A stretch of 48,062 bases of DNA from a virus. The stretch is taken from the IMG/VR virus record IMGVR_UViG_3300003409_000006, positions 1-48,062 of that record. The stretch is one strand, 5' to 3'. Below are positions 2,955 to 45,778 of this stretch, in pieces (position 1 is the first letter of the stretch; every line of letters starts with the position of its first letter). The notes beneath the pieces are model-generated. The model saw nothing but the letters and a program-made list of their open reading frames with translations, was not told the origin of the DNA and ran no database searches. The translations under genes were made by a program, and so were the position numbers.

Positions 2955-3585
2955 GAGCAGTAGCGCACATCCATTGATTACACAACAGAATTCGCCTGTC
3001 TTCTTGTACCTCAGGAAGCATATGCCAGGTATGTTCGGTGTTTAACCAAAAAGTTCCAGTCCATTTTGTTCCTATTGTCTTGTGGTATAATTTATAATCG
3101 TATTCGCCGATACGATGATACATTTCTGTAGTTGTTGAGTTATCTTGTAAATTAATTACTCCTGCCCACAAAACAAATCTGTTGTCTATATGATATCCTT
3201 GACTAAATCCTGGCTTGTCTAATACTATTAACCCGTGTCTTTTATCCCATAGTTGCTGTTCATCGTACCATTGCGATAAAAGAGAATCTTCAGATTTAAC
3301 GTCTCCATAATAAATAGGATAATTTACAGGATCTAACTTAATAATATATTTTGTTATTTCTTCAAAACAAAGAGTTGCATTATAAGAAAGTTTTTCAGCA
3401 ATTTTATTTTTATTTTTGTATGAAAATCTATTTGATATTTGTGTTAATTCTTTATTATAATTTATTTCTTCGAAATTGTTAGTATCTTGATATATTTTGT
3501 TTAATTTGTCGTCAGACATTAACGGCTCAAATTCAACTTGAATTACCGGAGGATTAGTATTAATGGTTTTAATATTTTTTACCAC
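2941..3585 (-). CDS. 2OG-Fe(II) oxygenase-like protein
   Basis: This 214-residue protein has the metal and cosubstrate residues of the double-stranded beta-helix dioxygenases: HID (His132, Asp134) in GYHIDNRFVLW, the distal His188 in EHTWHMLP, and Arg197/Arg198 in EDRRIL for 2-oxoglutarate. Such enzymes hydroxylate or otherwise oxidise proteins, nucleic acids or small molecules, coupled to decarboxylation of 2-oxoglutarate. Related genes are frequent in marine T4-like phages, mostly with unknown substrates. It is the last gene of the long leftward operon, overlapping the preceding radical SAM gene by seven bases. It may finish a modification begun by the radical SAM enzymes, but the sequence alone does not show this. 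Confidence 0.7.
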   Translation of the reverse strand: MVKNIKTINTNPPVIQVEFEPLMSDDKLNKIYQDTNNFEEINYNKELTQISNRFSYKNKNKIAEKLSYNATLCFEEITKYIIKLDPVNYPIYYGDVKSEDSLLSQWYDEQQLWDKRHGLIVLDKPGFSQGYHIDNRFVLWAGVINLQDNSTTTEMYHRIGEYDYKLYHKTIGTKWTGTFWLNTEHTWHMLPEVQEDRRILLCNQWMCATALKPT

Positions 3586-4793
3586 GGATCTATATTATAC
3601 TCGTCTGCTAGTTTTAAAAACCAAGGCATTGTATTAAACAAATTTTGTTTCCTTGACTTGTCAAAATCTTTTGTTATACTAAAAAATTTGTGTATCCTGG
3701 CTATATCTATTGGTTGCTCATATGCATTTTCTAAAGTTTTTATAAGACTGTGTACATGCTGATGGATAAATTTCATATTTTTTAATTTTGTAATTTGTTC
3801 TAATAAAATATATTTTGGAACTAAGTTAAGTTGATTTGTACCCATTATGTCTATGAAATAAAAACAAGTTTGTTTTCCGCCGATGCTGCCTAATTCACTA
3901 TGAATTAAATCATAATAATTATGAGCATTTAGATTTTGCATAGTAGTTGATATACCTACATTAATAGTGCTATGATCAACTATTTTTTCTATTTCTTTCC
4001 AGTTTTTTACAAGTTTAGTATAATTACCAGGCCACCTTATGTAATTATACGTGTCACCTTCTCCATCAACACTAACAGAAATTCTGTTACTTTTAAATTT
4101 AGAAAATCTATCTATATATGAACTTATTTTATTAGTATATAAATTAGTATTAAATTGCAAATCTATATTTTTTGCAGATCCATTTTTTATTAACAAATCT
4201 AAAATTTCATCAAAGAATTCGTTAACTAACGGCTCGCCTCCTACAGCATATATACCTGTTAAATTTTTACAACGATCAATAAATTCTAAAATAGAATCTT
4301 TTAATTTACGTGAAGGATTGTGATCAATTTCTCCTGTCCATCTTCCAATATCTTTTAAATTTTTAGCAAGCAGTGTACTACTAGTTGCATCACACATTCT
4401 ACATGCTAAATTACATTTGTTTCCTAGATTTAGATCTATATATCTAATATCTTCGCAAGATAATTCTTTTTTAAAAGTTGATTCACTATAATGGATATGG
4501 CCGTTTGGATTAGTAGGATCGATAGCAGTTTTTCTAAAACTTCTTGCGCCTATATCGTCAGCATTCCAACATCTAACACAAGTGGGATGTCTTTTATTTT
4601 CTAAAAAAGCAGACCTCACATCTTGCATGTAATTGTTATTTAAAATGTCGTCAATATTATCTACATCAAAATAATAAGGTTTTGGAATATCAAACGCACA
4701 ACTACAACATTGACGCACTGAACCATATTGATCTAAACTAACTGATATGAACGGAAAGGTACAATAATTTGTATACTTATTTAGATCGATCAA
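3579..4793 (-). CDS. Radical SAM enzyme with N-terminal twitch-like cysteine domain (404 aa)
   Basis: The radical SAM [4Fe-4S] motif is CNLACRMC (Cys127, Cys131, Cys134), followed by GGEP (185-188), the usual SAM amino-group contact. Before the barrel lies a separate cysteine module: Cys11 in YCTFPF, Cys29/Cys30/Cys32 in RQCCSC, and Cys72/Cys75 in CVRCWN. This looks like an auxiliary iron-sulfur (twitch/SPASM-type) domain placed at the N-terminus. Phage members of this kind are known as twitch domain-containing radical SAM proteins; reactions are not established. It is the fourth radical SAM gene in the operon, starting inside the end of the previous one (17-base overlap). Substrates might be peptides or sugars; I see no decisive clue. 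Confidence 0.85.
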   Translation of the reverse strand: MIDLNKYTNYCTFPFISVSLDQYGSVRQCCSCAFDIPKPYYFDVDNIDDILNNNYMQDVRSAFLENKRHPTCVRCWNADDIGARSFRKTAIDPTNPNGHIHYSESTFKKELSCEDIRYIDLNLGNKCNLACRMCDATSSTLLAKNLKDIGRWTGEIDHNPSRKLKDSILEFIDRCKNLTGIYAVGGEPLVNEFFDEILDLLIKNGSAKNIDLQFNTNLYTNKISSYIDRFSKFKSNRISVSVDGEGDTYNYIRWPGNYTKLVKNWKEIEKIVDHSTINVGISTTMQNLNAHNYYDLIHSELGSIGGKQTCFYFIDIMGTNQLNLVPKYILLEQITKLKNMKFIHQHVHSLIKTLENAYEQPIDIARIHKFFSITKDFDKSRKQNLFNTMPWFLKLADEYNIDPW

Positions 4794-11265: not shown

Positions 11266-12154
11266 CGAGTACCTCGTCTATACATCTGTTTAAACTAAAT
11301 TTATTCATTACATGAATATTATAATGTTTGAATCTTGCCGCAGTATATTCTCCACGATGCGATTGTTTCTCTAATAAAAACAGCATTTCGTCGTTGTCTA
11401 TTTTATGCAAAATATCTTTGTCAGTGGTGTAAAAAAGTTTTCCTGGCATTTCTTTTGCAAACATAGTTCCTGATTGAAATCCGTTCATAATATGAATTGC
11501 TATACTAAATGCATGATCATTTCTATACACTACTCTGTTAAGTTGATACACGTTTTTATAGTGAGTCCAATTTTCTTGTATGTGTTGTACTAGGTCAAAG
11601 AAAATTTTATTAGACTCAGTTTTTCTAAAAAATACACAAGTAGCCCAATAAAAATCTATACTCGAGTCACTAATATATTCAAATTCTCTATAATCTCTAA
11701 AATCGGCTAAGTCGTATGCTGTTTTATAAATTAAAAAATTATTAGGCTGTGTGAAACACCATTTATATAAGTCGTTGTTAACAACAATATCGCTATCTAA
11801 CAAAAGAGTTTCGTCATAAGGACTAACATCATATGCCAGTGTCCTAGTTTCGTTTTTAAATTCTAATTTCTTTTCTACTAAAGTTCCGTCGTGGTATCTT
11901 TTAAATGTGTGATTTTCTGTCTTACTGAGTGTTGTATCTTTAGATAAATCTTTTTTATTCCATACAATATTAATAACTCTGTCAAACACAGTTTCGTAAT
12001 CTGGAAAGGACAATCGCAGATAATCACCACTATCTGTAACAATAGTAGTAGGTAGTTGTAAGTATTTTTTTACCTGCTTTGCTAAAAAGTACGCTTGTTT
12101 TACATAGTCTACGGTATTGTTGTTTCTAGCAAATACTAAAACGCCTTTACTCAT
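11258..12154 (-). CDS. GT8-like glycosyltransferase (298 aa)
   Basis: This 298-residue protein has an N-terminal strand MSKGVLVFARNNN, a TIVTDSGDY segment, and the DxD motif in YDETLLLDSDIVV (Asp120, Asp122). It has about 30 residues more than its downstream paralogue between the first strands and DxD, including KKDLSKDTTLSKTEN. The C-terminal part contains GEYTAARFKHYNIHVMN, of unknown function. It follows the 115-residue gene with a four-base overlap and precedes the second GT8-like gene with an eight-base overlap, so all three are coupled. The two may add successive sugars, but this is inference from duplication. Confidence 0.7.
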   Translation of the reverse strand: MSKGVLVFARNNNTVDYVKQAYFLAKQVKKYLQLPTTIVTDSGDYLRLSFPDYETVFDRVINIVWNKKDLSKDTTLSKTENHTFKRYHDGTLVEKKLEFKNETRTLAYDVSPYDETLLLDSDIVVNNDLYKWCFTQPNNFLIYKTAYDLADFRDYREFEYISDSSIDFYWATCVFFRKTESNKIFFDLVQHIQENWTHYKNVYQLNRVVYRNDHAFSIAIHIMNGFQSGTMFAKEMPGKLFYTTDKDILHKIDNDEMLFLLEKQSHRGEYTAARFKHYNIHVMNKFSLNRCIDEVLDV

Positions 12155-12498
12155 AGTTCTACTAATTTTTCTACACTTCGGTTAGATTTTAATTTTTGAT
12201 ATTCTGTGTTAAATTTATTAGTTGCAATAAAATATGTGTCTAAAATATCTTCTAAAAATTTGTTTATGTCATCTATTTTTACAGGAATATCGTTGTCGTC
12301 AATTAACACCACGGATTCTCTTTTAAAATTTACAAGAGTAGAACAGAAGCATATGAGCTCTCGGTTTACTGTAAATTTACTACCGCTGGTATAATAAATA
12401 AGATCTTGATAAACGCTTTCTTGCAGGATACGTTTTTGATTATTAAGCGTAATCATGTAATTAGAAAAGTCAAGTGCTTTTTCTAATCTTTCGTCCAT
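12151..12498 (-). CDS. Small conserved-looking phage protein, 115 aa, first gene of the accessory operon
   Basis: Function is not recognised. The sequence starts MDERLEKALDFSNYMITLNNQK, is predicted helical at both ends, and has a short beta segment around FTVNRELICFC and SVVLIDDNDIPVKIDD. I recall similar short proteins among marine T4-like phages but cannot name a function. It has no signal peptide or membrane segment. A clear AAGGAG ribosome site lies six bases before the ATG. That site forms part of the right arm of a 12-bp inverted repeat around its promoter (12507-12547), so its translation may depend on which transcript it is made from. It is the lead gene for the GT and radical SAM genes. 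Confidence 0.75.
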   Translation of the reverse strand: MDERLEKALDFSNYMITLNNQKRILQESVYQDLIYYTSGSKFTVNRELICFCSTLVNFKRESVVLIDDNDIPVKIDDINKFLEDILDTYFIATNKFNTEYQKLKSNRSVEKLVEL

Positions 12499-43826: not shown

Positions 43827-43834
43827 TATTTAGT
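43827..43834 (-). promoter_or_regulatory. Late-box-like ACTAAATA for the baseplate block
   Basis: On the minus strand ACTAAATA keeps the TAAATA core of the late element. The predicted start is near 43821, leaving a leader of about 14 bases that contains AGGAG before the ATG at 43807. The box shares base 43834 with the -35 hexamer of the divergent gp55 promoter. Confidence 0.5.
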
Positions 43835-43862
43835 TGACTTTTTTAACTGCGTATATTATAAT
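43834..43862 (+). promoter_or_regulatory. Sigma70-type early promoter of gp55
   Basis: TTGACT (43834-43839) and a perfect TATAAT (43857-43862) are separated by 17 bases. The -10 lies in a 14-base palindrome, TATATTATAATATA (43852-43865). Initiation near 43869 gives a leader of about 18 bases containing AAAGGA. Confidence 0.85.
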
Positions 43863-43886
43863 ATATTGAATTGTAAAGGATTTTTC

Positions 43887-44711
43887 ATGAAACGCAAAAA
43901 CTATCTTAATAATAAAGACTTGTTATTGGAAATACATAGGTCAAAAAACACATTCTGTTCTTATACAGAAAAAGAATATCATCAATATGATATTATTCTT
44001 CCTAGCATAGAAAAAATAAACATTAGAACTATTGCAGAAGCAAAAAGAAACAAAGCAAAACGCCTTTCTACTGCGGCTTATGAAGCTCGTAAAGAAGCAG
44101 GGGAGAAGGTTAAACAAGCAGAATGCGAAGTTGACTACAAAAAGATCACAAAAGAAGAACTAATTTTCCGTGTAATGACATTTGATCATATTCCGGATGA
44201 TCCTACTAGAAAGAAAAATCCTAAAACTGTAGCAGATCATAAAGTAAAATTAAATTTTCCTCCATTTGTACATTATAAGTTTGACGAAGACGGTGAATTA
44301 CAACTTGTAGGGAAAAGTCATTGGGTAGGAGGCATGGAAAATGGTTATTTTGATAGAGATCACGGTCAAGCAACTAATAAACTTGCTCTTATGTGGATGA
44401 AATTATGCGATCGTTATGCTACTCGTGGCAATGTTCGTGGTTATACCTATAATGACGAAATGCGTGGACAAGCAATCCTACAATTAGCACAAATTGGCTT
44501 GCAATTTGACGAATCTAAAAGTCAAAATCCATTTGCATACTACACTGCGGCAGTTACTAACTCATTTGTTAGAGTTATTAACATTGAAAAACGCAATCAG
44601 AACATTCGAGACGATATTTTAGAAATGAACGATATGAATCCTAGTTATACACGACAACATGCAGGCGAATGGGAAGCGGCTCTGAAAAGAGAAAGCGAAA
44701 ATAACGATTAA
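43887..44711 (+). CDS. gp55: Late-transcription sigma factor gp55
   Basis: The protein is 274 residues from the ATG at 43887. An upstream in-frame TTG at 43866 would add seven residues, but AAAGGA sits six bases before the ATG and overlaps that extension, so the ATG is preferred. The C-terminal half carries the conserved sigma region 2-like block of gp55: YNDEMRGQAILQLAQIGLQF, FAYYTAAVTNSFVRVINIEK and NQNIRDDILE. The N-terminal half is highly charged and longer than in T4 gp55 (185 residues in total). In T4, gp55 with gp33 and the clamp gp45 directs host RNA polymerase to TATAAATA promoters. Boxes of that type precede six structural genes here. Confidence 0.93.
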   Translation: MKRKNYLNNKDLLLEIHRSKNTFCSYTEKEYHQYDIILPSIEKINIRTIAEAKRNKAKRLSTAAYEARKEAGEKVKQAECEVDYKKITKEELIFRVMTFDHIPDDPTRKKNPKTVADHKVKLNFPPFVHYKFDEDGELQLVGKSHWVGGMENGYFDRDHGQATNKLALMWMKLCDRYATRGNVRGYTYNDEMRGQAILQLAQIGLQFDESKSQNPFAYYTAAVTNSFVRVINIEKRNQNIRDDILEMNDMNPSYTRQHAGEWEAALKRESENND

Positions 44712-44719
44712 ATCTTTGG

Positions 44720-44748
44720 TTGACTTTAACATTTTCTTTTGTTATACT
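44720..44748 (+). promoter_or_regulatory. Sigma70-type promoter of gp47/gp46
   Basis: TTGACT (44720-44725) and TATACT (44743-44748) are spaced by 17 bases, with a TG extension before the -10. Start near 44755 leaves a leader of about 13 bases with GAGG. The -10 is at the tip of a 10-bp inverted repeat. Confidence 0.83.
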
Positions 44749-44757
44749 AACAAAAGA
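44735..44757. repeat. Perfect 10-bp inverted repeat centred on the gp47 -10
   Basis: The arms TCTTTTGTTA (44735-44744) and TAACAAAAGA (44748-44757) flank a three-base loop. The downstream arm runs into the GAGG ribosome site of gp47 (44756-44759). It could be an operator for a dimeric regulator or, in transcripts coming from gp55, an RNA hairpin that partly covers the ribosome site. Confidence 0.85.
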
Positions 44758-44767
44758 GGTATAGACA

Positions 44768-45778
44768 TTGTTTAAAAAAGCAGCAGTATTCACAGACATA
44801 CATTTTGGACTTAAATCCAACTCGAAACAGCATAATCAGGACTGCGAAGAATTTGTAGACTGGTTTATTCAAACTGCAAAGGATCGTGGTTGCGAAACTG
44901 CTATCTTTTGCGGTGACTGGCATCACAATCGCAACAGTTTAAACATTACTACCATGGATGCAACACTGCGTTCATTGGAAAAACTTGGTCAAGAGTTTGA
45001 ACAGTTCTTTTATTTCCCAGGCAATCACGATTTGTACTACAAAGACAAGCGTGATATCCACTCTGTGGAGTTCGGAAAGCATGTTCCCGGTGTAACTGTT
45101 GTTAACGAAATCACAGAAAGCGAAGATGTGTGCTTGGTTCCGTGGTTGGTAGGCGATGAATGGAAGAAACTTCAAAAGTCTACTGCAAAATACATGTTCG
45201 GACACTTTGAATTACCGCATTTCTACATGAATGCAATGGTACAGATGCCTGATCACGGTGAACTAAAAGCCGAACACTTTGTAAATCAAGAGTATGTGTT
45301 CAGCGGTCACTTCCACAAGCGTCAAAAGCAAGGCAAGATTCACTATATTGGTAATGCTTTCCCGCACAACTATGCAGATGCATGGGATGATGAGCGTGGT
45401 ATGATGATACTAGACCGTGAGAACAATGCGGAACCAGAGTATATCAACTGGCCAGACTGTCCTAAGTACCGTACATTGAAACTTTCAGAGCTGTTAGACA
45501 AAACAGAAGAAATCATTAAGAGTAAAATGTACCTTAGAGTTACTTTAGACTTGCCTATCAGCTATGAAGAAGCTCAGTTTATCAAAGAAACTTTTATTAC
45601 ACAATATGATTGTCGTGAAATTACACTTATTCCGCAAAAACAGATCGAAGAAATTTCAACAAACATCGATATTCAACAGTTTGAATCAGTAGATCAAATT
45701 GTGAGTAATGAAATTTCTGCTATTGACTCAGATAACTTTAATAAAAAACTGCTATTGGACATTTACAACGAACTATGA
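44768..45778 (+). CDS. gp47: Recombination endonuclease subunit gp47 (Mre11/SbcD-like)
   Basis: This 336-residue protein has the calcineurin-type phosphoesterase motifs in order: DIHFG (10-14), GDWHHNR, GNHDLYY and SGHFHKR, which bind the two metal ions. With gp46 it forms the phage Mre11-Rad50-type nuclease that resects ends during recombination-dependent replication. The start is a TTG: no ATG lies between the promoter and the first motif, GAGG is eight bases upstream, and the first motif begins at residue 10, as expected. The stop overlaps the gp46 start by four bases (ATGA), giving coupled synthesis. T4 gp47 is 339 residues, an excellent length match. Confidence 0.93.
   Translation: MFKKAAVFTDIHFGLKSNSKQHNQDCEEFVDWFIQTAKDRGCETAIFCGDWHHNRNSLNITTMDATLRSLEKLGQEFEQFFYFPGNHDLYYKDKRDIHSVEFGKHVPGVTVVNEITESEDVCLVPWLVGDEWKKLQKSTAKYMFGHFELPHFYMNAMVQMPDHGELKAEHFVNQEYVFSGHFHKRQKQGKIHYIGNAFPHNYADAWDDERGMMILDRENNAEPEYINWPDCPKYRTLKLSELLDKTEEIIKSKMYLRVTLDLPISYEEAQFIKETFITQYDCREITLIPQKQIEEISTNIDIQQFESVDQIVSNEISAIDSDNFNKKLLLDIYNEL

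Follow-up and report, generated by a model that had tools for sequence, protein, structure and literature searches.

The promoter of gp47 in an uncultured phage lies within a perfect inverted repeat predicted to mask the ribosome binding site (RBS) of the gene on read-through RNA. The promoter is kept in relatives, the repeat is not, and the same architecture is evolutionarily maintained at a second locus of the virus. The window, i.e. the whole stretch of DNA analyzed, covers 48 kb out of a 58.9-kb uncultured phage contig. gp47 (44768..45778, plus strand) starts with TTG and encodes an SbcD/Mre11-like nuclease subunit (phrog_100, E 7e-71; PF00149); it is followed by gp46 (SbcC-like, start at 45775) and preceded by gp55, which encodes a late sigma factor (43866..44711, plus strand; phrog_12791, E 3e-78). 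The TTG at 43866 is merely the first possible start of the gp55 ORF, ATG at 43887 being likelier. The gp55 stop (44711) and the gp47 TTG (44768) are separated by 56 nt, which hold a sigma70-type promoter (44720..44748, plus strand) with 17 nt between its TTGACT (44720-44725) and its TATACT (44743-44748). The TTG start of gp47 is found in 46/52 de-replicated phages (window 44768; relatives L002-L081), a weak start codon unusually fixed.

The inverted repeat (44735..44757, plus strand) is formed by TCTTTTGTTA (44735-44744) and TAACAAAAGA (44748-44757), 10 bp in length, with the 3-nt loop TAC (44745-44747) in between and the -10 at the stem tip. The 3' arm overlaps the Shine-Dalgarno sequence (SD) AGAGG (44755..44759, plus strand). 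The RNA hairpin has a predicted energy of -9.0 kcal/mol, and the antisense strand folds nearly as stably (-8.3). Upon RNA folding two extra G-U pairs lengthen the stem, and cover the last two G of AGAGG. The predicted probability that the SD is unpaired is 0.29 in gp55 read-through RNA, and 0.96 in RNA started at the promoter. The preliminary description of the locus, with TATACT at the tip of a perfect 10-bp repeat and an arm running into the SD, is exact, and its distinction between a read-through RNA carrying the hairpin and a promoter RNA free of it is supported by the predicted openness of the SD.

Late promoters located within RBS-masking hairpins are well documented for T4 e, soc, 49, I-TevI/II/III and segB, and for Aeh1 mobE (PMC3014915, PMC2988022). 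In these cases the two arms flank the promoter; the RBS is covered when read-through RNA folds, and the 5' arm is missing from RNA of the internal promoter. The window loci share this layout, but feature a sigma70-type (-35/-10) promoter in place of the late promoter of T4. At gp47 the promoter is found between both arms, and the RBS is predicted to be hidden on read-through RNA and open on promoter RNA. An internal late promoter is missing at gp47, where the sequence reads TTGACT-17-TATACT and the late-like CTAAATA of the family is absent. Maintenance of the hairpin in related phages was found at the second locus, called here 12498(-), and not at gp47, the dyad of the window virus differing from T4 in its lack of conservation.

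We tentatively favor, with chance and a DNA operator as close rivals, the view that the gp47 dyad acts as a translational lock specific to this lineage, in the manner of T4 gene e or I-TevI but with a sigma70-type promoter at its core. Read-through transcripts from gp55 would contain the two arms and fold into a 12-pair AU-rich hairpin masking the gp47 SD; transcripts beginning at the internal promoter (near 44755) would be free of the 5' arm and therefore translated. Synthesis of gp47, plus gp46 behind it, would depend on its own promoter only, uncoupled from gp55. The promoter, the dyad and the maintained architecture at the second locus are shown, and masking of the SD is predicted; where transcription starts, that it runs on from gp55, and how translation of gp47 responds are what we infer in this scheme. 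No clear timing benefit of the lock is visible, because the gp55 and gp47 promoters are both sigma70-type.

gp47 loci were monitored in three scans of viral contigs (223 loci, the same contig being repeated in some). The -35/-10 pair, in the form TTGA-16/17-TA(N)nT, is kept in 51/51 de-replicated relatives from the first scan, none of which has the dyad, precisely the pattern that the preliminary description had named as speaking against its proposal. The dyad is absent from every distinct relative, the longest perfect stem spanning the -10 being 8 bp among 101 relatives, and at the gp47 promoter of the closest distinct relative (L002, 78% DNA identity) the stem measures 4 bp. The dyad also occurs in two other contigs, which represent the same virus (about 100% identity) and provide no independent evidence. 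An exact-sequence search of viral contigs with the dyad core gave at least 119 unrelated matches, the informative ones coming from the same virus only. No comparable promoter-dyad was seen by eye ahead of gp47 in the cultured relatives Paride, RaK2, Phosso and Atu_ph07; gp55 and gp47 overlap in RaK2, and nearly abut in Paride. As a class, gp47 promoters feature a small excess of self-complementarity (z -2.5 to -2.75 in swaps without the window virus, z -2.5 in dinucleotide shuffles), spread across -30 to 0 with no centring on the -10. Hairpins covering the SD are not enriched at these promoters (12/102 vs. 10.2% in swaps), nor is SD accessibility reduced there (z -0.36). The earlier claim that the same geometry, occurring twice, reflects design and not chance is not supported at gp47 itself, where relatives keep the promoter without the dyad and SD-covering hairpins stay at the level of swaps.

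That claim holds at the second locus, for which the evidence is stronger than for gp47. It spans 12553 to 12496 on the minus strand, is probably the other promoter-in-hairpin locus of the preliminary description, and includes TTGACA (12553-12548), a 17-nt spacer, TATAAT (12530-12525) and the ATG (12498-12496) of a gene encoding a 115-aa protein (12151..12498, minus strand). The stem is 12 bp long (12547-12536 / 12518-12507), and the SD lies within it. Relatives were found via the 115-aa gene (L345-L424), and carry at this site hairpins of unrelated sequence, such as CTCCTTTAA...TTAAAGGAG-type, AGTCTCCTA...TAGGAGACT, TATTGTATC...GATACAATA and TGTTGTA...TACAACA. Swapping halves among relatives abolishes the hairpin (z -7.4 to -8.7; -6.6 when the window virus is excluded), and stems of at least 6 bp are found in 71% of relatives vs. 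15% of swaps. The folding excess peaks at the -10 (-3.85 +/- 0.94 at 0, -2.24 +/- 0.53 at +10, about 0 elsewhere), and the 3' arm ends -8 to +3 nt from the SD. The hairpin is an evolutionarily maintained structure. Maintenance at the RNA rather than the DNA level is more likely; in the outer stem G-U and A-C mismatches are in a 12:4 ratio. In one clade (L351, L362, L364, L399, L401) covariation counts revealed no double changes, and 90% of cells are paired vs. 30-47% when slid. A stable hairpin immediately upstream of an exposed RBS is described in a passage on seg43 of Aeromonas phage 25 (PMC2988022); several relatives of the 12498(-) locus likewise have the hairpin directly next to the RBS, but the passage describes no sigma70 promoter inside the seg43 hairpin. 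The 115-aa protein has no match in Pfam or PHROG, and no significant match among solved structures. Its AlphaFold model (pLDDT 91) resembles one phage protein (E 3e-6) and, weakly, phage DUF4376 domain proteins.

Only slightly less likely than the lock is a chance origin of the gp47 dyad, spacer and leader of an AT-rich promoter being complementary by accident and the dyad having no function. Lack of conservation in all relatives fits this explanation, as does the finding that stems this long are expected about once per window: two stems of at least 10 bp were observed in the whole window vs. 0.77 +/- 0.72 expected, and a 10-bp stem somewhere in the window is therefore unremarkable. In contrast, a stem of at least 10 bp placed on the -10 of such a promoter is rare, being obtained in 0.29% of swapped half-promoters (spacer and leader exchanged among related gp47 promoters). 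Co-directional genes precede about four promoters of the window virus, which brings the chance, after correction, to about 1%. Only 2/200 local shuffles fold as stably as the dyad. The second, evolutionarily maintained case in the same virus also argues against accident.

That the dyad serves as a DNA operator, on which a dimeric regulator would block RNA polymerase, is about as likely as chance, or slightly less so. At the DNA level the repeat is perfectly symmetrical across the -10, and both strands fold alike. Sense vs. antisense folding asymmetry fails, in our hands, to tell RNA dyads from DNA dyads. In 18/101 relatives a TGT-N21-ACA motif occupies fixed columns of the gp47 promoter (Fisher p 6e-15), with TGT at spacer positions 3-5 and ACA at positions 4-6 past the -10. 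The two triplets co-occur in 18/21 promoters with TGT and in 18/20 with ACA. The carriers (L013, L017, L018, L030, L032, L046, L062, L080, L250 and 9 others) form no evident clade, gp47 protein identity being 77.2% among themselves vs. 77.1% to the rest, a distribution predicted for an operator, and inverted triplets at a fixed spacing across a promoter look, as far as sequence goes, like the operator of a dimeric regulator. Removal of the 18 carriers and of the window virus abolishes the dyad excess of the gp47 class (z -1.0, p 0.15); the excess is thereby explained, and the remaining promoters are in line with a chance origin of the window dyad. TGT-N21-ACA is absent from the window virus, from gp55 promoters and from promoters of the 115-aa gene, and the two cases found in the promoter survey described below are both gp47 promoters. 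The dyad of the window reads TGT-N7-ACA, and differs from the motif of relatives in both centre and spacing. It is neither fixed in relatives, as TGT-N21-ACA is in 18 of them, nor repeated in the window, where half-sites at one mismatch occur 8 times vs. 5.1 expected, and no candidate repressor was found. A 16-mer, TCTTTTGTTATACTAA, is present twice in the window, at 44735-44750 and 3667-3682 (both plus strand), 0.02 occurrences being expected with one mismatch allowed; the copy at 3667-3682 is antisense within the ORF 3579-4793 (minus strand), has TTGACT 16 nt upstream and misses the right arm.

Promoters were surveyed in 20 phage contigs, 93 lying behind co-directional and 21 behind divergent genes. 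A hairpin excess was found in the former (z -7.5; z -3.7 for the 61 left without genes sized like the 115-aa gene and gp47), none in the latter (z +0.2, 20 contigs). Similarly, the gp55 promoter (43834..43862, plus strand), taken as a control, has no hairpin excess in relatives (z about +0.2 to +0.8); no read-through RNA is expected there, because the upstream gene points the other way. Promoters of the late CTAAATA type display a weak excess (z -2.0, n=38), and an Rfam search gave no match. In genes other than the 115-aa gene and gp47, much of the structure sits some 50 nt ahead of the promoter and probably represents ordinary terminators; the excess at the -10 is weaker. It is highly improbable that the gp47 dyad belongs to the 3' end of gp55 mRNA, as a terminator or stabilizing hairpin that overlaps the promoter owing to the short intergenic region, for although the excess is confined to promoters behind co-directional genes and hairpins are enriched about 50 nt upstream of other promoters, the gp47 stem is AU-rich with a T run on neither strand, and the excess at 12498(-) centres on the -10, not on the upstream stop. 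The dyad thus has neither the GC-rich stem nor the trailing T run of an intrinsic terminator.

The lock may be part of a family-wide device by which uncultured phages put sigma70-type promoters in RBS-masking hairpins; genes behind co-directional, often late, genes would be translated from their own promoter only, the reverse of T4, and gp47 of the window virus would have gained its hairpin recently. We regard this extension as speculative. The device stands out strongly in one gene family, appears elsewhere in scattered single cases, and is unproven at gp47. T4 late promoters inside hairpins keep late proteins from early synthesis. A sigma70-type promoter in such a hairpin would, if true, do the opposite, an early gene in a late operon being silent on late read-through RNA. 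The gene upstream of 12498(-) appears structural, and the read-through silenced there would therefore be late, not early as in T4. IS10 and IS50 are protected from impinging transcription in a similar way: RNA reading through from outside folds back and hides the RBS, and the own promoter gives an open RNA. The window differs in having a phage replication/recombination gene, and no transposase or mobile element. The 12498(-) locus reveals an architecture that selection keeps in many uncultured phages although its sequence is not conserved, and which can therefore be searched for by complementarity alone. The gp47 result is mainly cautionary: even where a promoter is conserved, a dyad on it that catches the eye may not be.

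Further promoter arrangements were observed. Three promoters, L465 8922(-), L468 3209(+) and L468 3481(+), carry 10-14 bp dyads that stop short of the SD by about 12 nt or more, and SD masking is no explanation for them. At 43827-43866 a late-like CTAAATA, serving a minus-strand structural gene, is head-to-head with the gp55 promoter and overlaps the gp55 -35, an arrangement kept in relatives. CTAAATA is also found inside some sigma70-type spacers (G001, G003, G004, G006, G010), which gives the look of a late promoter nested with an early one.
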